Below are positions 13,201 to 31,200 of a stretch of 64,000 nt of DNA, piece after piece. Within the stretch, counting starts at the first letter, position 1. Every line of letters begins with the position of its first letter. The notes beneath the pieces are model-generated. The model had not been told where the DNA came from. It was given only the letters and a program-made list of their open reading frames with translations, and made no database searches. The translations under genes were made by a program, and so were the position numbers. The DNA is from Leuctra nigra. Its lineage: Eukaryota; Arthropoda; Insecta; Plecoptera; Leuctridae. The DNA lies in contig OW203765.1 of NCBI GenBank assembly GCA_934045905.1, positions 16,927,409-16,991,408 on the forward strand, written 5' to 3'.

Positions 13201-16200
13201 GCGTGCGAGGACCTCAGTCGCGGACTAGAGGAGGCGTTGACCAAGCTCAGCCAGCAGGAGACCGTCTGGTGAGTCCAGAAGGCGGTGAGACCATCAGGTG
13301 AGTCCAGGAGGCGGTGAGACCGTTTGGTGAGTCCAGGAGGCGGTGAGATGAGACCATCTGGTGAGTCCAGGAGGCGGTGAGACCATCGGGTGAGTTCAGG
13401 AGGCGGTGAGACCGTCTGGTGAGTCCAGGAGGCGGTGAGATGAGACCATCTGGTGACTCCAGGAGGCGGTGTACCATCTGGTGAGTCCAGGAGGCGGTGA
13501 GACCGTCTGGTGAGTCCAGGAGGCGGTGAGACCATCTGGTGAGTCCAGGAGAAGAGTCTTGGCTTCGCTAGTCGAACAATTTATCATGCGGTTTCGATTG
13601 GAGAAGAGGCCTCCATTTCACAATAGCCTTCTACGCACCTTCCTTCTTTGCTTACCTATTCTTCAACATCATCTCTCTGTCATAATCAGTCATTTGTTGC
13701 GGAACAGTGCGACGACCAAAAAATAAGAAATAAATCACAGTCATGATTTCATGATTTCAGTCATGATTTCAGACATGAAGTTTTGAATTTTCCGTGGCAT
13801 GTCCTCGTCGATGGCTCTCTTGTTGATATCGATGTCGACCGCAGTAGACGGCTCTCTTGTCGATATCGATGTCGACTACAGTTACGTGATCGCAGGTCGA
13901 CGGCTCTCTTGTCGATATCGATGTCGACTACAGTTACACGATCGCAGGTCGACGGCTCTCTTGTCGATATCGATGTCGACTATAGTTACATGATCGCAGG
14001 TCGACGGCTCTCTTGTCGATATCGATGTCGACTACAGTTACGTGATCGCAGGTCGACGGCTCTCTTGTCGATGTCGATGTCGACTACAGTTACATGATCG
14101 TAGGTCGACGGCTCTCTTGTTGATATCGATGTCGACTACAGTTACATGATCGCAGGTCGACGGCTCTCTTTTCATATCGATGTCGACTACAGTTACATGA
14201 TCGCAGGTCGACGGCTCTCTTGTTGATATCGATGTCGACTAGAGTTACATGATCGCAGGTCGACGGCTCTCTTTTCATATCGATGTCGACTACAGTTACA
14301 TGATCGCAGGTCGACGGCTCTGGACGACATCCAGCGCGAGGTCGAGACCAAGCTGGACAAGGTCGAGATCTCCCCGCTCAAGGACTTCGTCAACAACAAG
14401 CTGCGACTTCTGCAGGAGCGACTCAAGATGCTGGCAGCGCTCAGGAAGGAGACGGAGGCTGCAGGTAACTCTCTGGACCACGTGGCAAGGCAGATGTACA
14501 CCTAGTTCGAGGTTTATACGCTGTAGAAGTTTTGACGTGGAATTATGGACTACGTCGTATTGACTTCGACACGAGCAAAAAAATGTTAAGTTCAGTAGTA
14601 TGCATGGTAGTTTGGTCCAACAAAGGATGCCGCCGTCAATCATCATTAGTCACGGTCAATTAGTCAAAGCGTGCCGCCTATTGTCCTGTCACTCATAATC
14701 ACACGGTCAATTACACCTGTCAATCCGGTCAATTACACCTGTCAATCATCATTACTTCCGGTCAATTAAACAAATTTGCATAATCAATCTCAATCAATCA
14801 AAAAAGTGCATCCAATCAATTAAAAAGTGCATAATCAATCCATTTAATCAAGTGCATATTAAATTCAATCAATTAAAAAAGTGCATTCAATCAATCAAAA
14901 AGCGCATCCAATCAAAAAGCGCATAATCAATCTAATCAATCAAAATAGCGCATGTTAAATTCAATCAATCAAAAAGTACAATCAATCAAGTGCATATTAA
15001 TCGTGGTCTTCAGAGGCGCGCGCATTGCTGCGTCATCTTGGAATCAGTAACTTACTAGTCTTAACTTGAAAACGCAGGTGTAGTACTACGTCATCATGAT
15101 CAGGTAGGGAAAGGGTGTGGTCCTTTTGTATCCAGCAACGACATCACTTAGCCATCAATAGGAACATGGGTTAAACTCTATTGTTAATGTTTACACCTGA
15201 GTACGTATATAGTGCGCATCATTGGTTTTCTTTAGACTAATCTTAAACGGACATCCCTTCTTAGACAATAGAAATGAGGGTGCGCTGCCCAACCCTTGGC
15301 ACAGGTGCTTTGAAAATCAGGTCAGTGGGCGTGAGAAAAGGTATCTAGGTCACTACGTCACACGGAGGATAGCGAATAGCAGAGCTTGATTTGGGAATAG
15401 GGGCGTATACAGTTTAAGGATAGGATCGCTGACTATACGTTTTGTTTCTGCGCATCCGTTACTGCGCATTCTAAACTGTGTTGCGAGTTTAGGATTGTTA
15501 TTTGAAATAGGAATACTTAGACCAAGAATTGTCATTACGTTCTCAGCTCTTGTAGCAGTCAGTTCGTAGTTGCGCTTATTCATTGTGTTTGGAAGTTTTT
15601 GCGTCGTTTGGAGTTAGTGTTTGAAGTGAGTTTTCGAGTTAGTTTATGCTTTTGCGTTTGATTTGCGGTTGTGAAGTGTTTTAGAGTGTCACGGTTTTAA
15701 TTAAACTTGCGCTGCTTGTTTCAAGTGAGATTGCCGACCAACATTCTAACATTAATCTGTTTAATTCTGAATTAAGTTTTTATTAACGATTTCTAACAGC
15801 GAGTTTTTCACCACTGTGCTTTAATAAAAATCTGTGTTGGATTTATTCCATAGATTTTTATATTTCTTCATTGACGGTTTTTGAAAGCAGTCAATTTTTA
15901 AGTTGTGTGATTTATTCCGCATCTGTTTTATACGTGATTCAGTCCGTATCTTTTTATACGTGATAAGTCCGTATTTTCTGTTTTTGCCACTACAATAAAA
16001 TGGAGGCAAATACCAATAGTGCCAATTTCACACTGACTCCGCCAACTCATTCGAGGCGTGAGCGTGAAACGACAGGAGATCGTGTTTCGGTTATTATGAG
16101 GCCACGGATTGCCCCCACACCATCAAGGGCAGTCGCGGAGGAACCGGAGCAGCAAGAACCATCTCAACAAGAACCACCTCAACAAGAACCACCGCAGCTT

Positions 16201-19200
16201 GTTCAACGCGACACATCGCCTCGTCATGAACCAGTAAGGTACTGGCAGCCATGGCGAGGTGATTCGCAAGAAGAATCATCGTCTGAACACCATGAAGCTG
16301 ATGTACCGCACTCTCCAGAACCGGGTCCCTCACACCGTCCGGATCCGATTCGCCGTCCAACACCGACGCGCCGAGAACCTTCGCCGCAACCGGGACCATC
16401 CCATCGGCCAGATCCGGTCCAGTTGGTCGACTATTCCGACAGCGAGGACTCGGTTGAAGAGGAGCAGCGTCCCCCAACTCCGCAACAACAACACGGAGCT
16501 GGTGCCGTCCCTGGCAGGGGTTTCAATGTCATAAATGAGCATGTGGTCAGGCTGCGCCAGTATAAAACTAATTTTCGGAAAGTTGAAATTTCTATGGACG
16601 AAGTCCCTGCTGGCGTCAATCCCCTCCAGTGGCTAAGGAGAACTTTAAATAATTTAATAGACTACTTAAAATCGGACGAGGTTCAACCATACCATAAAGT
16701 TGGTATGAAAATATTCAGTTCTACAGCCCCTCAAGACCCCATCATAATTACTTTCATGCTTGCCTCCCAACTCGATGCGGACGTCATAATGTCACGCATC
16801 GAGAAGGTTTGCCAGAGCAATAAATCGTTTTTAAGTGGAGGCACACTCACAATTTTACTCACGCATATCGACCTCCCTGTCGGTACAGGTCGGGCTCGTG
16901 GCTGCGTACCGAGTTTTGTCTCAAACGACTCAAAAGCAAAACATAAGAGAAGCATTATTCGCATTGTAAATAAAGATAACCTCTGTCTGGCTAGGGCTCT
17001 GGCTGTTGCTGTGGCTATTCATGAAAAGCCACATGATTGGGATGCTATTAGGAGGGGAAGACTTATTCAAGGTGATATTGCTGAAAACTACTGTACTGCT
17101 GCAGGAGTAGATTTGATTCAGCACGGAGGAGGCATCGATGAGGTTCGTGCTTTTCAGCAATACTTTTCAAAATACACCATCACCGTCTATGGTTCATTGA
17201 GTGGTACGAAGCAGGATGTTTTGTTTGAGGGACCAGCGTCAGTGATAGGGCATGAGAGATTGAACATCGACCTCTGGATGCACGACAATCACTTCGATGT
17301 GATAACAACGGTCACAGGCGCATTCGACTGTTCGTACTATTGTCGTGCATGCCATGTTTGCTCTTCCAACGTAGGTGACCATCAATGCAAGTCCCGATGC
17401 CCCTACTGCAGGTTTACGGAAGATTGTTGCCCGAACGGTGTTTCAAGACACGAATGCTCTACTTGCAATAGAGTTTTTCAGAGTAGCAAGTGTTTTGCTT
17501 ACCATAAAATGGGCGGTACTTATGGCAAAAACGCGTCAGTGTGTGACACTTTGAAAATATGTATGCATTGTAACGCTTTTGTAGATTATTCAAAGGGACG
17601 ACGAGGCCTTATTTGTGGGGAAATGTATTGCTGCATGTGTAAAAAGTACTGTCGGGCTAGTCATCAATGCTACATGCAGAGAGTGGAACCTGAAAAGCCG
17701 AATAATAAAAATAAAATATTCACTTTCTTCGACATAGAGGCAACACAGTGTACCCCTATGTCCGGTCATGACAACATATTGGAGCATGAACCGAACCTCA
17801 TTGTTTCCCAGCAAGTGTGTCTCAGATGTGCTTCTGACTCATCGATCACTGCATCATGCGATGCATGTTCCCCCAACGAAGCAAGGCAACAAGTTTTCAA
17901 TGGACCGTCCCCTCTCACATCATTCTTCCAACATGTGACTAAACATCGGAAAGGCGTTTCAGAAAACATGTTGATTGCTCATAATATGAAGGGGTACGAC
18001 GGACATTTTGTTTTGGGACACATGGTAAATGAGTTGAAGATGAACCCTACCATTATACAGAGCGGGTCTAAGCTTATGCTTATGTCAGTAAAAGGTTTAT
18101 CTGTCAAGGACTCTCTAAATTTTATGCCAATGGCTCTTAGTAAACTTCCTGCGGCTATGAATCTTGAAGATCATTTTAAGAAGGGTTTCTTTCCGCACTT
18201 TTTCAACCGGCCAGAGAATTTTGGCTATGTTGGACCACTTCCCGATCCTAAGACCTACGGGTGTGATGCCATGGACATAAAGGGTCGGAAAAACTTTATG
18301 GACTGGCATGACAATGAAGTGGCCAACAACAAAGTCTTTGATTTCGATCAAGAGCTGCGTGACTACTGCGTCAGTGATGTGTCCATCCTCAGAGAAGCTT
18401 GTCTCTCATTCCGAAAAGAGTTTCTAGCGGAAAATAACATCGATCCGTTCTGGCAAGCAGTCACTATTGCCAGTGCTTGTCTGCTAGTGTTCCAACAAAA
18501 CTTTTTGCAAGCTGACAGCATTGGACTGATTCCTGTTGGTGGATACAGAATGGCTGACAAGCAGAGTCATGCAGCTATTCTCTGGCTGGATTGGGTTGCT
18601 TCTAAGAACAATATTGACATTCAACATGCCGGAAACGGTCGGGAGTTTATTCTGCACAGCCGTTGCAAGGCAGACGGGTATTACAAGAACGCTGACGGTC
18701 GACAGACCATTCTTGAGTACCATGGCTGCTTCTGGCATGGGTGCCCCAACTGCTTCAAAAACAGGGACAGTCACATATCCAATACGAACGCGGATACAAT
18801 GGGCAAACGATTTGAGTCTACCGGGCGGCGTACTGCATTTCTGCGTAACGCCGGCTACGAGGTTGTTGAAATGTGGGAATGCCAGTTCAATGAATTGAAA
18901 AAGACCACCCCTGAATTAGTCGAATTTATTAAACAACACCCCAACAACAACAAGGAACCGCTCGATCCCAGGGATGCCTTCTTTGGAGGACGAACCAATT
19001 GCACCAAGACTTACTTTAAACCACCTCAAGGGTCTACGGTGCAATACTTAGACGTCTGCTCCCTTTATCCCTGGGTGAATAAATATGGGGCGTATCCCTT
19101 AGGTCATCCGAAAATCTATCATGGTACGAAGTGTAAAGACATTGTTGGCCCCAATTTTGACATTACTGGGGTCAATGGTTTTATTAAATGTAAAGTAGTA

Positions 19201-22200
19201 CCTCCATCCAGCTTATACCATCCCGTTCTACCAGTGCGACACGACGGCAAGCTTCTCTTTCCTCTGTGCCGCACTTGTGTTGAGACCACGTACAATGGTG
19301 AATGTCCACATACGAACGATGAAGATCGCGCGTTCGTTGGGACGTGGGTCTCAATGGAACTGCAGAAGGCTGTGTCCCTGGGGTAAAGGTTGATCGCCAT
19401 ATATGTGGTATGGCAGTATAACACCACAACCTATGATCCCAACACCAAGTCAGGAGGCCTCTTCACGGGGTACATCAATCAGTTCCTTAAGGCCAAGGTT
19501 GAGGCAAGTGGTTGGCCTGATTGGTGTACCGATGACTTAAGCAAAACGGAATACATCAGGCAGTTTGAGGACCGTGAAGGGGTCTCTCTTGATCAGGGCA
19601 GAATTGAGAGCAACCCAGGTAGACGCTCATTGGCCAAACTGATGCTCAATAGTTTTTGGGGCAAGTTTGGCCAGCGTCTGGACCTGACGAAACATGAGAT
19701 TGTGGACAACAACAGTAAATACATGGATTTAGTGTGCGATCCTGGCAAGACAATAAACACTGTCGACCCTCTCTCCAACGATAAACTCTTGGTTACGTGG
19801 AATGACCACAGCGAGGCTGGAGCTGGGTCCACAAAAGCAAGCGTTGCCATCGCCGCCTTCACCACCGCGCTGTGGTCATTCCACGTAACCAAGAGTTTAT
19901 CGTTGGAGAGAGGGTCGACAGTGTTTATTGTCTTGCCAGGATCGCACACTAAATCCATGTATTTACTGTTGTTGTCCACAATCTCATGTTTCGTCAGGTC
20001 CAGACGCTGGCCAAACTTGCCCCAAAAACTATTGAGCATCAGTTTGGCCAATGAGCGTCTACCTGGGTTGCTCTCAATTCTGCCCTGATCAAGAGAGACC
20101 CCTTCACGGTCCTCAAACTGCCTGATGTATTCCGTTTTGCTTAAGTCATCGGTACACCAATCAGGCCAACCACTTGCCTCAACCTTGGCCTTAAGGAACT
20201 GATTGATGTACCCCGTGAAGAGGCCTCCTGACTTGGTGTTGGGATCATAGGTTGTGGTGTTATACTGCCATACCTCATATATGGCGATCAACCTATACCC
20301 CAGGGACACAGCCTTCTGCAGTTCCATTGAGACCCACGTCCCAACGAACGCGCGATCTTCATCGTTCGTATGTGGACATTCACCATTGTACGTGGTCTCA
20401 ACACAAGTGCGGCACAGAGGAAAGAGAAGCTTGCCGTCGTGTCGCACTGGTAGAACGGGATGGTATAAGCTGGATGGAGGTACTACTTTACATTTAATAA
20501 AACCATTGACCCCAGTAATGTCAAAATTGGGGCCAACAATGTCTTTACACTTCGTACCATGATAGATTTTCGGATGACCTAAGGGATACGCCCCATATTT
20601 ATTCACCCAGGGATAAAGGGAGCAGACGTCTAAGTATTGCACCGTAGACCCTTGAGGTGGTTTAAAGTAAGTCTTGGTGCAATTGGTTCGTCCTCCAAAG
20701 AAGGCATCCCTGGGATCGAGCGGTTCCTTGTTGTTGTTGGGGTGTTGTTTAATAAATTCGACTAATTCAGGGGTGGTCTTTTTCAATTCATTGAACTGGC
20801 ATTCCCACATTTCAACAACCTCGTAGCCGGCGTTACGCAGAAATGCAGTACGCCGCCCGGTAGACTCAAATCGTTTGCCCATTGTATCCGCGTTCGTATT
20901 GGATATGTGAATGTCCCTGTTTTTGAAGCAGTTCGGGCACCCATGCCAGAAGCAGCCATGGTACTCAAGAATGGTCTGTCGACCGTCAGCGTTCTTGTAA
21001 TACCCGTCTGCCTTGCAACGGCTGTGCAGAATAAACTCCCGACCGTTTCCGGCATGTTGAATGTCAATATTGTTCTTAGAAGCAACCCAATCCAGCCAGA
21101 GAATAGCTGCATGACTCTGCTTGTCAGCCATTCTGTATCCACCAACAGGAATCAGTCCAATGCTGTCAGCTTGCAAAAAGTTTTGTTGGAACACTAGCAG
21201 ACAAGCACTGGCAATAGTGACTGCTTGCCAGAACGGATCGATGTTATTTTCCGCTAGAAACTCTTTTCGGAATGAGAGACAAGCTTCTCTGAGGATGGAC
21301 ACATCACTGACGCAGTAGTCACGCAGCTCTTGATCGAAATCAAAGACTTTGTTGTTGGCCACTTCATTGTCATGACAGTCCATAAAGTTTTTCCGACCCT
21401 TTATGTCCATGGCATCACACCCGTAGGTCTTAGGATCGGGAAGTGGTCCAACATAGCCAAAATTCTCTGGCCGGTTGAAAAAGTGCGGAAAGAAACCCTT
21501 CTTAAAATGATCTTCAAGATTCATAGCCGCAGGAAGTTTACTAAGAGCCATTGGCATAAAATTTAGAGAGTCCTTGACAGATAAACCTTTTACTGACATA
21601 AGCATAAGCTTAGACCCGCTCTGTATAATGGTAGGGTTCATCTTCAACTCATTTACCATGTGTCCCAAAACAAAATGTCCGTCGTACCCCTTCATATTAT
21701 GAGCAATCAACATGTTTTCTGAAACGCCTTTCCGATGTTTAGTCACATGTTGGAAGAATGATGTGAGAGGGGACGGTCCATTGAAAACTTGTTGCCTTGC
21801 TTCGTTGGGGGAACATGCATCGCATGATGCAGTGATCGATGAGTCAGAAGCACATCTGAGACACACTTGCTGGGAAACAATGAGGTTCGGTTCATGCTCC
21901 AATATGTTGTCATGACCGGACATAGGGGTACACTGTGTTGCCTCTATGTCGAAGAAAGTGAATATTTTATTTTTATTATTCGGCTTTTCAGGTTCCACTC
22001 TCTGCATGTAGCATTGATGACTAGCCCGACAGTACTTTTTACACATGCAGCAATACATTTCCCCACAAATAAGGCCTCGTCGTCCCTTTGAATAATCTAC
22101 AAAAGCGTTACAATGCATACATATTTTCAAAGTGTCACACACTGACGCGTTTTTGCCATAAGTACCGCCCATTTTATGGTTAGCAAAACACTTGCTACTC

Positions 22201-25200
22201 TGAAAAACTCTATTGCAAGTAGAGCATTCGTGTCTTGAAACACCGTTCGGGCAACAATCTTCCGTAAACCTGCAGTAGGGGCATCGGGACTTGCATTGAT
22301 GGTCACCTACGTTGGAAGAGCAAACATGGCATGCACGACAATAGTACGAACAGTCGAATGCGCCTGTGACCGTTGTTATCACATCGAAGTGATTGTCGTG
22401 CATCCAGAGGTCGATGTTCAATCTCTCATGCCCTATCACTGACGCTGGTCCCTCAAACAAAACATCCTGCTTCGTACCACTCAATGAACCATAGACGGTG
22501 ATGGTGTATTTTGAAAAGTATTGCTGAAAAGCACGAACCTCATCGATGCCTCCTCCGTGCTGAATCAAATCTACTCCTGCAGCAGTACAGTAGTTTTCAG
22601 CAATATCACCTTGAATAAGTCTTCCCCTCCTAATAGCATCCCAATCATGTGGCTTTTCATGAATAGCCACAGCAACAGCCAGAGCCCTAGCCAGACAGAG
22701 GTTATCTTTATTTACAATGCGAATAATGCTTCTCTTATGTTTTGCTTTTGAGTCGTTTGAGACAAAACTCGGTACGCAGCCACGAGCCCGACCTGTACCG
22801 ACAGGGAGGTCGATATGCGTGAGTAAAATTGTGAGTGTGCCTCCACTTAAAAACGATTTATTGCTCTGGCAAACCTTCTCGATGCGTGACATTATGACGT
22901 CCGCATCGAGTTGGGAGGCAAGCATGAAAGTAATTATGATGGGGTCTTGAGGGGCTGTAGAACTGAATATTTTCATACCAACTTTATGGTATGGTTGAAC
23001 CTCGTCCGATTTTAAGTAGTCTATTAAATTATTTAAAGTTCTCCTTAGCCACTGGAGGGGATTGACGCCAGCAGGGACTTCGTCCATAGAAATTTCAACT
23101 TTCCGAAAATTAGTTTTATACTGGCGCAGCCTGACCACATGCTCATTTATGACATTGAAACCCCTGCCAGGGACGGCACCAGCTCCGTGTTGTTGTTGCG
23201 GAGTTGGGGGACGCTGCTCCTCTTCAACCGAGTCCTCGCTGTCGGAATAGTCGACCAACTGGACCGGATCTGGCCGATGGGATGGTCCCGGTTGCGGCGA
23301 AGGTTCTCGGCGCGTCGGTGTTGGACGGCGAATCGGATCCGGACGGTGTGAGGGACCCGGTTCTGGAGAGTGCGGTACATCAGCTTCATGGTGTTCAGAC
23401 GATGATTCTTCTTGCGAATCACCTCGCCATGGCTGCCAGTACCTTACTGGTTCATGACGAGGCGATGTGTCGCGTTGAACAAGCTGCGGTGGTTCTTGTT
23501 GAGGTGGTTCTTGTTGAGATGGTTCTTGCTGCTCCGGTTCCTCCGCGACTGCCCTTGATGGTGTGGGGGCAATCCGTGGCCTCATAATAACCGAAACACG
23601 ATCTCCTGTCGTTTCACGCTCACGCCTCGAATGAGTTGGCGGAGTCAGTGTGAAATTGGCACTATTGGTATTTGCCTCCATTTTATTGTAGTGGCAAAAA
23701 CAGAAAATACGGACTAATCACGTATAAAAAGATACGGACTGAATCACGTATAAAACAGATGCGGAATAAATCACACAACTTAAAAATTGACTGCTTTCAA
23801 AAACCGTCAATGAAGAAATATAAAAATCTATGGAATAAATCCAACACAGATTTTTATTAAAGCACAGTGGTGAAAAACTCGCTGTTAGAAATCGTTAATA
23901 AAAACTTAATTCAGAATTAAACAGATTAATGTTAGAATGTTGGTCGGCAATCTCACTTGAAACAAGCAGCGCAAGTTTAATTAAAACCGTGACACTCTAA
24001 AACACTTCACAACCGCAAATCAAACGCAAAAGCATAAACTAACTCGAAAACTCACTTCAAACACTAACTCCAAACGACGCAAAAACTTCCAAACACAATG
24101 AATAAGCGCAACTACGAACTGACTGCTACAAGAGCTGAGAACGTAATGACAATTCTTGGTCTAAGTATTCCTATTTCAAATAACAATCCTAAACTCGCAA
24201 CACAGTTTAGAATGCGCAGTAACGGATGCGCAGAAACAAAACGTATAGTCAGCGATCCTATCCTTAAACTGTATACGCCCCTATTCCCAAATCAAGCTCT
24301 GCTATTCGCTATCCTCCGTGTGACGTAGTGACCTAGATACCTTTTCTCACGCCCACTGACCTGATTTTCAAAGCACCTGTGCCAAGGGTTGGGCAGCGCA
24401 CCCTCATTTCTATTGTCTAAGAAGGGATGTCCGTTTAAGATTAGTCTAAAGAAAACCAATGATGCGCACTATATACGTACTCAGGTGTAAACATTAACAA
24501 TAGAGTTTAACCCATGTTCCTATTGATGGCTAAGTGATGTCGTTGCTGGATACAAAAGGACCACACCCTTTCCCTACCTGATCATGATGACGTAGTACTA
24601 CACCTGCGTTTTCAAGTTAAGACTAGTGAGTTACTGATTCCAAGATGACGCAGCAATGCGCGCGCCTCTGAAGACCACGATTAATTGAGCGAGCGAAGCG
24701 AGCGTCTCCATTTGGCTCTTTTGGCACGGACCTCTGTTTTTTTTTTTGTTTGTTATTTTTTTTTCTGTTACTGACGATATACAGGTCAGAGTTTTTCTTC
24801 GATCGAGCTGAAATTTTGCACACATGTACGTAACATTTCTGATTGTTGCAGACCCTAATTTTTTTGAAATCCATTGATTGGTTCAAATTTAAAAAAAATT
24901 AACTTTCGATTGGTTGTTTTGATCAAATTGAAATTTTGACAAGTCATTACCCCCAACATTGTACCCAATCAAACAAAGTTTCAGCCAAATCCTCCCATTG
25001 GTTAAAATTTAAAACCATCTTTCCTGTGTTTTTAGAAATTTAAACTATAACCGATTGAACGATCAACTTATAACTTCGCATGATGGTTGGGTCCAACATT
25101 ATCTGCATTTTTGACAATTTTCATACTAATCTGTGTTTAAATCCAAACGTTATTGACATTTTACGGACTATTAGCGTGTTGGCTGTCAAATTCACGGCGA

Positions 25201-28200
25201 CTTCGACTCTTCAGTTCAAGGCAAGGTAGTTAGAGCAGAAACTTTCAAACGCAAATGAAACTGATAATGACCGTTCAACAGTCGATCTGATATTGTGTAG
25301 ACACACTTATATCATATGAGTGGTCTCAGGTATATTTTTTGAAGGAGATCCTGTGATTTTTGAAAATTAACACGGAACAGTTCAATCATAAAGGTTCAAT
25401 TGATCAACTTAAAGCTTTGCATGGTTATTTGGACCAATATTTTAGGAATGTTTTGAGATTTCTATACAAATCTGTGGCGAAATTTTAGAATTATTGGCTT
25501 TTAATGACATTTTCGATAGACAGAATTTCGGTTCGAGGTGTTGCGCGTATCCGTGCTCGCTCATCAACGCGTTACTCAGATTCATTGGTTAAAATTTAAA
25601 TAAATATCTCCTGATAGGCTGAAAAATGAAAACGGTCTTCGATAATTCTGATCAAACTCATATTTTGCATGATCATTAAGACCAATATTGTCTCATATTT
25701 TACAAAATTTCATCCCAATCACTTAAGAACGTATGAAGTTATTTACATTTTTAATATCTGTCAGTAATGAAGTATCGAAATGAATGTTTTCCAGTGCCAA
25801 TTGAAAATTGATTCTGATTTGCTTTATGAACCAGGTGCTTAGATGCTATTTTAAAGTTTCGATGAAAAGCATACACTTTTAAGTTGATATCATAATCAAT
25901 TCCATATGGATGTATATGTTTTCTGTGCGTTGTGTACGCATTTCCGGTTCGAGAATTTGCACGTACCCGTGCTCGCTTATCAACGCGTTACACTGAGCGT
26001 TTTCCTAGTATGCACTTGATTGATTGTACTTTTTGATTGATTGAATTTAACATGCGCTATTTTGATTGATTAGATTGATTATGCGCTTTTTGATTGGATG
26101 CGCTTTTTGATTGATTGAATGCACTTTTTTAATTGATTGAATTTAATATGCACTTGATTAAATGGATTGATTATGCACTTTTTAATTGATTGGATGCACT
26201 TTTTTGATTGATTGAGATTGATTATGCAAATTTGTTTAATTGACCGGAAGTAATGATGATTGACAGGTGTAATTGACCGGATTGACAGGTGTAATTGACC
26301 GTGTGATTATGAGTGACAGGACAATAGGCGGCACCCTTTGACTAATTGACCGTGACTAATGATGATTGACGGCGGCATCCTTTGTTGGACCAAACTACCA
26401 TGCATACTACTAAGTTCTCTTTTAAACTTTTGAACACATTTTTTGTGAAATTGCTCGCTTGCTGTCTTCTTGAAAGTTTTACATATTTACAAAGGAATCA
26501 TTTCTATGAGACCGTTCCACCAATGGCAGCACAATTTTACAAGAAAATTTGCACTTTTCACAAAGAATAACTTCGAAATATAGCATAAAACTCTGATAAC
26601 TTGGTAAACATGATACACTAATAGTTTGGTAAACATTCAGGAGCGTGTATACTCAGATATGTTAGGTATAAAATATAATTAAACTGAAACACAATAGTAG
26701 TTTTTCAAACAAATCTATATATATGTGGCAAAGCAGTTCTGTGTGGATGAAACGGAATGAAAACCTATAACTTTTTAAGCAATTAATCTTGACAAATAGT
26801 CCGCGTTGACCACTTATTTATGCATTCTACTACAATACAAAAAACTATTATAATGTCGAATTCGAACGATTTCTCACTGCTTGACATGCGACTGTGTCAT
26901 CGTCAGGCACCAAGCACAAGCTGCTGCGCGACGTCCAGTGCGTGTCGTGCGACGCCGACGTCGTGCAGCGTCGCGACGACACTGGACAAGGCGTGGCGTC
27001 GGAGGCGCTGCCGCCGAGCCGCAGCATGCGTCCCTACCTCGCCTACGAGCTGGACGCCGTGCGACGCCAACAACGACGCATGCCCGGCGTCGGCCGCAAC
27101 ATGAACCACTTCCAGGAGGCGGAGAAGCAACAGGCTGCGCGGAACAGGGTGCGCGACGACGAGGGGCGCGATCATCTCTGCAACAGGTACTACATGGGTC
27201 GACGTAATTATTATAATCTTTCCAACATCTTCTTCAAGCCCTTATACTCTAGTTCCCTTCTCATGCCGTTTGGAAGGGTTCAGTAGCAAAGAGGAACATC
27301 CCCACTTTTTGCACATTTGAGAAACGAAGAAAGGTCTGTTCGTTTTGCTTACTGCAGTTGCAGTAGCAGCAGCTTACAGTAGGCCCTGGTAACTCTTGCA
27401 GTAGCTTACTGTACCAACACAAAACGAACGCATTTGCAGCAGGATGGCAGTCTGGTGAGAGGTTTGTGAATTTGGCGGAAAGAATTTAAAAATAAGTGAG
27501 GTTATGTTCTGCATTTATAGAATTCTTGTCTAATCCCAATGCATTTTTATATAAATATGTATCATTTCATAACATATAACTCACCTAAATTCTCTGAAAC
27601 AAATACTCATTTCCCTCAGCCTTGGGCGTATTTTCACTATCCATCCATAAGAAACACATTTTACATTTCAATACGTCCGCCATTTTGCCGTCTACTGCAA
27701 AGTTACTGCAGCTACAGTACTACCTCCCTACCCAGCTGTAAGAACAGTCACTGCGCAGCTACTGTCAGTGTCAAATCGAACAAATTCGCAGTGACGGAAC
27801 AGCAAGTTTGATGCAAAACGAACGGATTTGCAGTGAGCAGTCTAATCAGTGAGCATCTAATCACTAGGAAAACGCTCTGAGTAACGCGTTGATGAGCGAG
27901 CACGGATACGCGGAGCACCTCGAACCGAAATTCTGTCTATCGAAAATATCATTAAAAGCCAATAATTCTTGAATTTCGTCAGACTTGAATAAAAATCTCT
28001 AAATATTCCTAAAATGTTATTATCAACCTTTATGATTGAACTGTTCCTTGTTAATATTCAAAAATCACAGGACCTCTTTAAAAAAAATATACCTGGGACC
28101 ACTCAAATCATATGATATTAGTGTGTACACAATATCATATCAATCTGTTGAACGGTCATTATTAGTATCATTTCGTTTGAAACTTTCTGCTCTAACTACC

Positions 28201-31200
28201 TTGCCTTGAACTGAAGATTCGAAGTCGCCGTGAATTTGACAGCCAACACGCAAAATGTCCCTAAAATTACAAAAACTTTTGAAAATAACGACAGATTTGA
28301 CTGAAAATTAGCAAAAATACCTTAAATGTTGGTAGTAATGACCATGCAAAGTTTTTAGTTGGTCGGTCAATAGGTTCTAGTTTAAATTTCAAAAATCACA
28401 GGAAAAATGATTTCAAATTTGAACCAATGGGAGGATTTGGCTGAAATTTATTATGATTGGGTACAATGTTAGTTGCAATGACTTTGCTAAATTTCAAATT
28501 GATTGAACCAACCAATCGAAAGATTATTTTTTTTAAATTTGAACCAATCAGGGGATTTAAAAAAATTAGGGTCTGCAACGCAAGGAAATGGTCAGTACAT
28601 GTGTGCAAATTTTCAGCTTGATCGAAGAAAAACTGTGACTTGTATATCGTCAGTAACAGAAAAATAAATAAAAAAAAAACACAAAAAAAAAATAAAAACA
28701 GAGGTCCGTGCCAAAAGAGCCAAAAGGAGACGCTCGCTTCGCTCGCTCAATGACAGTAAGCAAAACGAACAGACCTAAAGTTAGGTGTGCATGTGCAAAT
28801 ATGCCTATGTGCCCAACTTTTTCGCGCAATGCAGAGCTTAGGTGGCTGTGGAAGTTTGGTCCACTTTGCTTTTTAAAAAGTATGAAAAACTCAAAGCATA
28901 ATGGTCCAAAAAGAAAACTTTGGCTAAGCCCCAATATGTGGGTTCGGTCCACTTTGCTTCTGAACCCTCAGTGACAATGAAAAAACCAACAGAAAGGAAC
29001 CCCATCCTATATAATATGACTATATGAGTTACGGATCCAAGAGAGCAAGCGAACACAAGAGTTAATTACCAATCAATGCTAAGAAAGTCGGTGGGTATTA
29101 GTCGCATTGTAAAACTGTCAAATGTAAATGTAAATGTCAAAACACCGCCGCCATGTTGGTTGAAGCAAAAAATTAAATTTGTACCAAGTAATATCCCTAA
29201 GGTCCAGTTTTCAATTATCTGCTAAAACAAGTATAATTAACCTAACAGAGATACAGTCCTAATGAACTGTTTAAAGTTAGCATAGTATTGAAAGAAAAAA
29301 GTTTGTAAGTTTGTCTTTCATCTAATCATGATTAAAACTTCAAATCATTTCGTCAACCAAAAAACCAAAAACGTGTCTACAAAAAGCAAATTCTCAGTTT
29401 CGCAGATATATTTTTTTATTTCCCTATTTAAATTGTAGGAATATTAAATTGTCTAATCATTTTACTGCTTTTTTTGATTCTGCACAAGTTCTTCAAGACA
29501 ATGTACTTTGTTTAGAGAATGCCCATGTGAAATAAATAGGCAATGCTTATTGCTTCGGGCATGATTATGCATACTAGTTTCAATGATGCCTAATAACTGA
29601 TAATACCAAAATTATAGTAATTATGGCTAAAATTAGACTGGTTTGTAGTCCAATGCAGACCAGAGAAAGTATACTAAACCATACTTAGTTATAGCTACGT
29701 AGAGCATATTATTATACGCTGTTGTGCCAGATCTGCGTACTGCAAAAACTCACAGAATACAATGAATAATAATCTCCGTAGATTGCATTGCATTACTAAA
29801 AAGTCGCTGTAAACACAAAAATATTTTTAATATCATTTAAGAGATCATATTTTAACGATCTAGAAAATAGTTAAGATCGTCATTGGTAATTTTTCCATCT
29901 AATTTAATGATCATAACTGAGCGAGCGAAGCGAGCGTCTCCTTTTGGCTCATTTGGCACGGACCTCTGTTTTTTTTTCTTTGTTTGTTTGTTTTTTTGCT
30001 AGGTGAGACTATACAGGTCACAGTTTTTCTTCGATCGAGCAGAAATTTTGCACACATGTGGAAACAATTCCTTTTCTTTTTGCAGACCCTAATTTTTTTG
30101 AAATCCATTCATTGGTTAAAATTTAAATAAACATCTCCCTAGGTTGAAAAATGAAAATGGTCTTCGATACATCTGATAAAACTCACATTGTGCATGTCTC
30201 TTATTTTACAAATGTTCATCCTAATCAGTTAAGAACGAAGAGCGCATTTTAGATAGCTGTCAGAAATGAAGTATCGAAATGAATGTTTTCTAGTGCCAAT
30301 TGAATTGAATATGATTTGCTGTATTTACCAGGATGCTTAGATGCTATTTTCATGTTTCGACGAAAATCATAATACTTTTATGTTGATTGAGTGGCTTATG
30401 TTTCAATTCAATATGGATTTACTAGGTTTTCTGTGCGTTCTGTACGCATTTCCGGTTCCAGAATTTGCACGTACCCGTGCTCGCTCATCAACGCGTCACA
30501 CTGCGCGTTTTCCTATTGTTAAAGTAAAGTGAACAATATACCTCATGTAGATAGTGAGTTGTTCCTGTATGGCACTCAACAAAGACGTCAGGGACCCTAT
30601 TCTATATCTCGTTTTGATCTCGTCGCGGCCGCCTTTGTCTCGGCGTAATGCTATCTTAATGGCAGTGAAACGAAGGCGGCCGAGACGAGATCAAAAAAAG
30701 ATATAGAATAGGGCCCCAGTTCCCTTGTTGTTGTCGCAACCAAGGTGTAAAGGTCATGATAGATCCACGACAGCGTTGAATTGTCACCTGTCACTCGCTT
30801 CTGTCACCATCTGTCACTCACTTGTCACATCTTCAGACATCGCATTGTAAACACGGCTATTGTACTCAATTTACGCTTACAGTCTTGTATCATTTCTATT
30901 TTTTTCTTTTTTTTAGGAAAGAGCCTCCATATAAATACTGTAAAAATAGCCAACGCATTATTTCCGTTGTTCATTCCAATTTTTAAATTATTTATCTCCT
31001 TTCCTGCTCTGTATAGCTCATCTTATGTTAAAAAAATATTGTGTACTTTCATTTCAAAGCTCTGGTAGGTTGGTAGACAGAGTATGGTGTCAATAAAATT
31101 AATATACCTTACCTACAATTCAAAGTCAATTCACTTCGAAACATATTTTTACTTAGCACACCTACATCAATTCGTAACACTTATAATTAAATTAATATTC

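Follow-up and report, generated by a model that had tools for sequence, protein, structure and literature searches.

A palindromic Polinton derivative with two polymerase-side ends in Leuctra nigra and its probable origin by snap-back replication

Extrachromosomal replication of Polintons has mostly been inferred from their genes. Vertebrate Mavericks have an (AGT)2//(ACT)2 terminal motif, to which a jumping-back role is ascribed, and a 6-bp target duplication (PMC8097293, in the part drawn on here). The self-complementary snap-back genomes of adeno-associated virus (AAV) occur in symmetric and asymmetric forms and have been proposed to originate by a template switch (PMC8235507, in excerpt). 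In origin-dependent inverted-repeat amplification (ODIRA), junctions at inverted repeats of approximately 5 nt, 40-80 nt apart, mark a leading-strand template switch (PMC10766186, in excerpt), and the abstract of PMC4176320 concludes that a polymerase, that of phi29 according to the section headings, switches template onto an already-made single strand. Transposon-like insertions with a palindromic structure form an established class, and the Mavericks named in the accessible part of PMC11202377 are complete. Here, we describe an 11,818-bp Polinton-derived element with two polymerase-side ends, found in a 64,000-nt stretch of the Leuctra nigra genome (contig OW203765.1, C4:16927409-16991408; referred to as the window), and compare it with related loci in the same 536-Mb genome (144 contigs).

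The element is located between two copies of AAGTTC (14588-14593 and 26412-26417). It starts with AGTAGTATGCAT and ends with ATGCATACTACT, and its tips are of the (AGT)2//(ACT)2 type (AGTAGT...ACTACT). A preliminary description had placed a palindromic Polinton at 14588..26417; position-by-position pairing showed that these coordinates are exact and bore out both the AAGTTC duplication and the 5'-AG start. The features of the element are listed below.

14588-14593, no strand: left target-site duplication AAGTTC, 6 bp
14594-19813, + strand: left arm, with the polymerase-side tip, the 722-nt terminal repeat and the PolB frame; 99.6% identical to the polymerase half of the C12 full-length copy
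14594-15315, + strand: left copy of the parent family's terminal inverted repeat, 722 nt long, matching both ends of the full-length copy
15967-19383, + strand: left-arm PolB open frame, 1139 codons from stop to stop, PF03175
19809-19813, + strand: CAGCG, first half of the inverted repeat and turn-back point, 5 nt
19814-19867, + strand: loop of 54 nt, which in the unfolded relatives continues colinearly from the left arm, by alignment
19868-19872, + strand: CGCTG, second half of the inverted repeat, the last bases colinear with the unfolded relatives, by alignment
19868-26411, - strand: right arm, the polymerase-side end inverted, read inward from the right tip, by arm pairing
19596-23717, - strand: right-arm PolB open frame, 1374 codons from stop to stop, crossing the fold into the other arm
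24366-24684, - strand: right terminal repeat, inner portion, matched to 14997-15315 by arm pairing
24685-26008, no strand: Helitron-like (presumably) dispersed repeat, 1,324 bp, confined to the right arm, where it lies between an A and a T, and ending in CTAG
26009-26411, - strand: right terminal repeat, outer portion, matched to 14594-14996 by arm pairing
26412-26417, no strand: right target-site duplication AAGTTC, 6 bp

Both arms begin at the polymerase-side tip, and they pair over 5,220 positions with 9 substitutions and no indels in the paired parts, leaving the 54-nt loop unpaired. In our judgement, inverted arms of 5,220 nt are not attributable to chance. The element had been described as a near-perfect 11.8-kb palindrome, which holds for these arms but not for the 1,324-bp insert; since the left arm lacks the insert, 1,324 of the 11,818 nt are outside the palindrome. 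We take this insert to be Helitron-like on account of its 3' end. With the C12 full-length copy as the reference, six of the nine differences were assigned to the left arm alone and the other three to the right arm alone, and they were dispersed along the whole arm (one extra difference, at alignment column 404, is the edge of the insert and was excluded). The two arms have thus changed independently. Nine differences in 2 x 5,220 sites correspond to a divergence of approximately 0.09% per arm. If insects accumulate 3e-9 changes per site per year, the age would be approximately 0.3 million years, which is a rough guide only.

PolB, a 6-bp duplication and terminal inverted repeats with (AGT)2//(ACT)2 ends identify the window element as Polinton-derived. 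A DNA_pol_B_2 (PF03175) match was obtained at 16000-19383 (E 2.9e-29), and the nearest named PolB is that of Ladona fulva (37% identity). PolB is truncated by the fold at approximately codon 1,302 of its frame, and in the left arm a private change at 19386 creates a stop codon that ends the frame still earlier. The left arm together with the loop showed 99.6% identity over 5,271 nt to the polymerase half of C12:10749101-10764186 (C12:1074), a full-length copy of 15.1 kb whose terminal repeat measures 722 nt and whose own target duplication is CGCATG. This match and the pairing of the arms confirm that both ends of the window element come from the polymerase-side terminus, as had been claimed. 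In another copy, C8:15304970-15320893, the order of frames is PolB, ATPase-like, 279, integrase, 266, 165, 449, BIR, protease-like, 236 and 282 codons. The ATPase-like frame (241 codons) gave weak Pfam matches, all under their cut-offs, the integrase frame (373 codons) contains rve and chromo domains, the BIR frame has 268 codons, and the protease-like frame, 184 codons long in C12, matched Peptidase_C5 at the cut-off. No Pfam match to a capsid family was obtained at E up to 1 for the C8 frames of 449, 266, 165 and 279 codons. The window element is made up solely of polymerase-side arms and lacks a retroviral-type integrase, and none of the ATPase-like, BIR, protease-like and other distal frames of the full-length relative was found in its arms. 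Without an integrase, it is a Polinton derivative and not a complete Polinton, i.e., a real, integrated, non-autonomous element with two polymerase-side ends.

The window sequence is colinear with the full-length C12 copy to position 19872 and then reverses. The reversal occurs at CAGCG (19809-19813) and CGCTG (19868-19872), which are 54 nt apart, and this inverted repeat is also present in the C12 copy. The fold site is unfolded in six of the six other polymerase-bearing copies examined (C12:1074, C10:1712, C6:357, C6:363, C5:1045 and the right strand of C12:2453), where both stems are kept and the sequence continues straight on; C12:1074 is the closest full-length relative. In C10:1712, C6:357, C6:363 and C5:1045, the polymerase half is colinear, with the 241-codon frame past the fold as in the full-length copy. 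Among 200,000 random fold junctions in this arm with loops of 20-200 nt, microhomology of at least 5 nt was found in 0.6%. Judging from these alignments, the window junction is of the form expected of a snap-back template switch. As in snap-back genomes, one original terminus is found at both ends and the turn-back lies at a short inverted repeat of the parent, so the suggested likeness to such genomes stands.

One other polymerase-side palindrome, with one visible end, was among the related loci surveyed below. This second polymerase-side palindrome, C12:24537131-24542984 (C12:2453), has 2.87-kb arms that are 99.97% alike and a 96-nt loop. Its turn, determined by eye, is a 12-nt stem with two G.T pairs (24539998-24540009 / 24540106-24540117). 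The left arm terminates at a 200-N run, and the left end is therefore unseen.

We consider it likely that the window element was generated by a snap-back in replication from the polymerase-side tip, followed by opening to a linear palindrome and integration in trans. Protein-primed replication would begin at the polymerase-side tip, and the strand would advance approximately 5.28 kb, past the first 1,300 or so codons of PolB. The CGCTG at its 3' end would then pair with CAGCG 54 nt back, on its own or the displaced strand, and copy back to the tip. The next priming round would open the hairpin into a linear palindrome that bears the same (AGT)2 end twice, and the integrase of a full-length Polinton would insert this palindrome and create the 6-bp duplication. 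After insertion, the arms would mutate independently and the right arm would gain the transposon. Of these steps, we infer the protein priming, the hairpin and the helper. Because the arms contain no integrase or other distal frame, the integrase presumably came from a full-length Polinton, and this supports the earlier proposal that it was supplied in trans. The satellite group described below would have followed the same course with other sequence and spread as palindromes.

Related loci were surveyed using window 14588-16000 as the query. The best 40 of 183 candidates were scored, and the resulting 45 matches were grouped by hand into 25 loci; all locus counts are among the matches listed and represent a lower bound. 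Ten of the 25 loci were palindromic or partly so: the window, C12:2453, C6:143, C7:2106, C7:34, C5:948, C5:2727, C10:2908, C13:73 and C100. The window element as a lone case is ruled out by this count. Six loci were non-palindromic with one polymerase end and one other end, namely C12:1074, C8, C1:4307, C11:1664, C4:167 and C9:1186, the last four being classed from census coordinates only. C3:4484, C3:2343, C9:67, C4:62 and C1:2102 were left out of this classification. Both ends are visible in eight palindromes (only one end at C12:2453 and C100), and each of these has tips of the form AGTAGT/ACTACT and is bordered by an exact 6-bp duplication. The eight duplications are distinct (AAGTTC, GCGAAA, TATCAT, TCTGTG, GTTGGT, GTAGCC, ACCAAC and CATAGC), two of them being read after a one-base tip shift. 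Comparison of up to 400 nt of flank at ten loci showed unrelated flanks except for C13 and C7:2106, which are in one dispersed repeat; their insertion points in this repeat are placed differently, and their duplications differ. A tandem repeat is common to the two flanks of C7:34.

Three of the ten palindromic loci contain or adjoin a run of 200 N (C5:9483716-9483915, C7:21073518-21073717 and C12:24536931-24537130). If these runs are taken as scaffold gaps, long palindromes seem to break assembly, and more of them may be hidden in gaps.

Eight palindromic loci, the satellites, have outer arms that resemble the non-polymerase end (C13:73260-86368, C5:9480816-9492917, C6:143233-159390, C7:21063070-21084243, C10:29080046-29094606 and C100:1-9618, together with C7:34 and C5:2727). 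A 402-bp loop with 99.5-100% identity was found at five of them: C6, C7:2106 (twice), C5:948, C100 and C13. The inner arm flanks this loop on both sides in C6, C7:2106, C5:948 and C100, and on one side in C13. Both ends are visible at C6, C7:2106, C5:948 and C13, which have four different duplications. The same loop at four loci with four duplications points to one palindrome that was born once and inserted several times, and palindromic Polinton DNA evidently moves as such. From these copies at several sites, replication as a free molecule with a helper seems probable. The earlier idea that a linear palindrome existed before integration is thereby well supported for the satellites, which inserted at new sites; for the window element itself, it is what we infer. 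The turn of C10 has a loop of approximately 7 nt near the point where the others enter the 402-bp loop (by eye). C7:2106 has a nested structure centred on a 200-N run, and the simplest reading of it is a single C6-type palindrome whose two sides were assembled separately.

The numbers of outer-arm substitutions in 2.89 kb were 1 in C6, 3 in C7:2106, 4 in C10, 5 in C13, 1 in C5:948 and 1 in C5:2727, the arms of the last having up to 40 gap columns. Between loci, C7:2106 showed 97-100% identity to C6, C5:2727 and C10 over most bins of 250 nt, the value for C10 being 92% in the first two. At 500-1000 nt, its identity to these sisters was 79-86%, with no BLASTN match for 667-828. This block diverges between loci while the arms within a locus are nearly identical, so changes that mark a locus are present in both arms. 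Rebuilding of both arms from one strand before integration would explain these changes, the alternative being later gene conversion. It is about an even chance, in our estimate, that there is a palindromic satellite Polinton lineage with self-complementary replication that uses polymerase and integrase in trans and has its arms rebuilt from one strand before integration, the window element being an independent, fresh birth. Such rebuilding would account for both the near-identical arms within a locus and the block differences between loci.

The satellite arms contain two or three related terminal-type genes (282/300/237 codons) and tandem repeats. A comparison of the 282-codon terminal frame with 5.8 billion proteins gave no match at E up to 0.001 among 329 candidates. 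TBLASTN with 84 PolB proteins gave 9, 4 and 9 matches in L038, L039 and L025, respectively, and none in L035; the PolB-like matches among those listed cover 72-114 residues with E values of 2.6e-5 to 8.9e-5. When the L038 frame was compared with these 84 PolB proteins by BLASTP, no match was obtained at E up to 0.001. Perhaps a decayed short piece of PolB is present in the satellite arms other than L035, as these weak matches suggest. The satellites as plain distal-end palindromes of the same parent were rejected on the basis of the related terminal-type genes and the possible decayed PolB, and with these contents they look like a separate lineage. An endonuclease VII gene in the satellites was also rejected: the Pfam matches were weak, under the cut-off and beside PolB-like sequence, of which they are probably part. 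In C7:34 (L042-L043, C7:34003954-34015940), a retroelement with frames for RVT_1, rve and Baculo_F is present in one arm, and the arm coordinates beside it overlap by approximately 6 bases, which resembles a target duplication.

Of the other explanations, formation in place appears the least improbable, although we still regard it as unlikely. In this case, a full-length Polinton at AAGTTC would have broken, and one terminal repeat would have copied the other inward through PolB until a microhomology join was made. Such repair yields the same ends, duplication and microhomology junction, and the window junction is compatible with it; moreover, the two terminal repeats of the C12 full-length copy are 99.86% identical (one differing site), and this 722-nt inverted homology could pair for the repair. 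However, the inner ends would be independent, so that the occurrence of both a 54-nt and a 96-nt loop would be a coincidence (an argument, not a computed probability), and repair in place does not give the common fold junction of the satellites at several sites with different duplications. A chromosomal fold-back without the terminal repeat would extend into the host flank, whereas the palindrome stops exactly at the tips.

It is highly improbable that a fold-back read (a missed adapter or hairpin) or a scaffolding error mirrored one arm. Palindromes do seem to disturb this assembly, with the N runs at three of ten loci and C7:2106 unmerged from both sides, and nanopore base calling suffers at inverted duplicates (PMC7229812, in the part consulted). 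On the other hand, the window contains no N, its flanks differ and yet bear a perfect duplication, the private substitutions are divided six to three and the 1,324-bp repeat is one-sided, all of which argue against a read artefact, as do the one-armed retroelement of C7:34 and the inner sequence missing from one arm of C13. Gene conversion is known to homogenise long inverted repeats, and if it kept the arms alike after integration, the palindrome would be older than its divergence suggests. Arms that are 98.8-99.98% alike within loci (BLASTN), together with one block that differs by 14-21% between loci, would suit this explanation. It accounts for arm identity but not for the shared fold junction or the duplications, and the nine differences of the window element span the whole arm with no single unconverted tract; we therefore give it little credence.

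Several points weigh against a snap-back before integration. The window locus itself yields no proof that its palindrome predates integration, and the one differing site of the C12 terminal repeats does not discriminate between the timings. The fold comparison covers the six copies named above; the more diverged copies C8, C1:4307, C11:1664, C4:167, C9:1186 and C3:4484 are outside it because their match to the query ends before the fold. None of the sequences examined was an unfolded parent of the 402-bp loop, for which a dedicated genome-wide search was not completed. C5:2727 and C7:34 have unpaired centres of 3.4-3.5 kb and C13 one of 2.4 kb, which a plain short-loop snap-back does not give. 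The centres of C5:2727 and C7:34 hold one copy of the inner arm. Centre deletions stabilise palindromes, and these large centres could be such deletions or asymmetric snap-backs as in AAV. The details of three palindromic loci are uncertain owing to the 200-N runs, and the entire analysis is based on assembled sequence.

The dispersed repeat that forms the 1,324-bp insert recurs elsewhere in the window (28025-28749 and 29918-30513), and other copies were found within or next to several Polintons (L025, L026, L029 and L043). Several Polintons are inside or adjoin copies of this repeat, which has the A|T insertion and the 3' CTAG, and the repeat may therefore be a preferred Polinton target. A tandem array of units of approximately 51-52 bp (14016-14321) is located directly to the left of the element, and Pfam searches of eight window frames outside the element gave leucine-rich repeats and one weak match. 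The BIR (inhibitor of apoptosis) frame adjoins the protease-like frame in a full-length copy and in a palindromic one; BIR (PF00653) was matched at L035:637-1089 (- strand) in a palindromic copy and at L045:8609-9412 (+ strand) in a full-length copy, with E values of 1.6e-19 and 2.3e-20, respectively. The C12 and C8 full-length copies (L044, L045, L010 and L026) showed 99.1% identity over the middle 6.3 kb, and their PolB proteins are 57-59% identical. To judge by these comparisons, the Polintons of this genome are mosaics with a sharp switch beside PolB.

No palindromic or snap-back Polinton was found among the titles and abstract openings listed from the open-access literature (a scope outside which subscription papers, Repbase and preprints fall), in agreement with the preliminary description. 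The snap-back idea is known from viruses; integrated Polintons of this form and repeatedly inserted palindromic satellites appear to be new. If the proposed origin is correct, the snap-back junction and the reinserted palindromes constitute a fossil record of where replication started, in which direction it proceeded and where the template was switched. The same record would point to integration that requires nothing in cis but the Polinton ends, to defective or satellite Polintons like those of viruses, and to an ability of eukaryotic chromosomes to receive palindromes of 12-16 kb, which disturb assemblies there.

The palindromic insertions of PMC11202377 are a length class, and the accessible part of that paper draws no link between these and Polintons. 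With Polintons/Mavericks it shares the (AGT)2//(ACT)2 tips, the 6-bp duplication, the terminal inverted repeats and PolB, but it has another polymerase-side end in place of the distal one, and it is 11.8 kb long including the insert, compared with 15.1 kb for the C12 copy. Foldback-type transposons have very long inverted arms and a short centre, and belong to other superfamilies with other ends, whereas the arms of the window element bear Polinton ends and a PolB gene. As in ODIRA, the window junction is at an inverted repeat of approximately 5 nt with 54-nt spacing. ODIRA, in contrast, is chromosomal and gives inverted triplications around an origin; here, the palindrome ends exactly at the transposon tips and is bordered by a 6-bp duplication. 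The AAV snap-back genomes are likewise self-complementary, with one terminus and an inner fold. AAV is a parvovirus, whereas the window element is a presumably protein-primed Polinton, and its palindrome is integrated with a target duplication.

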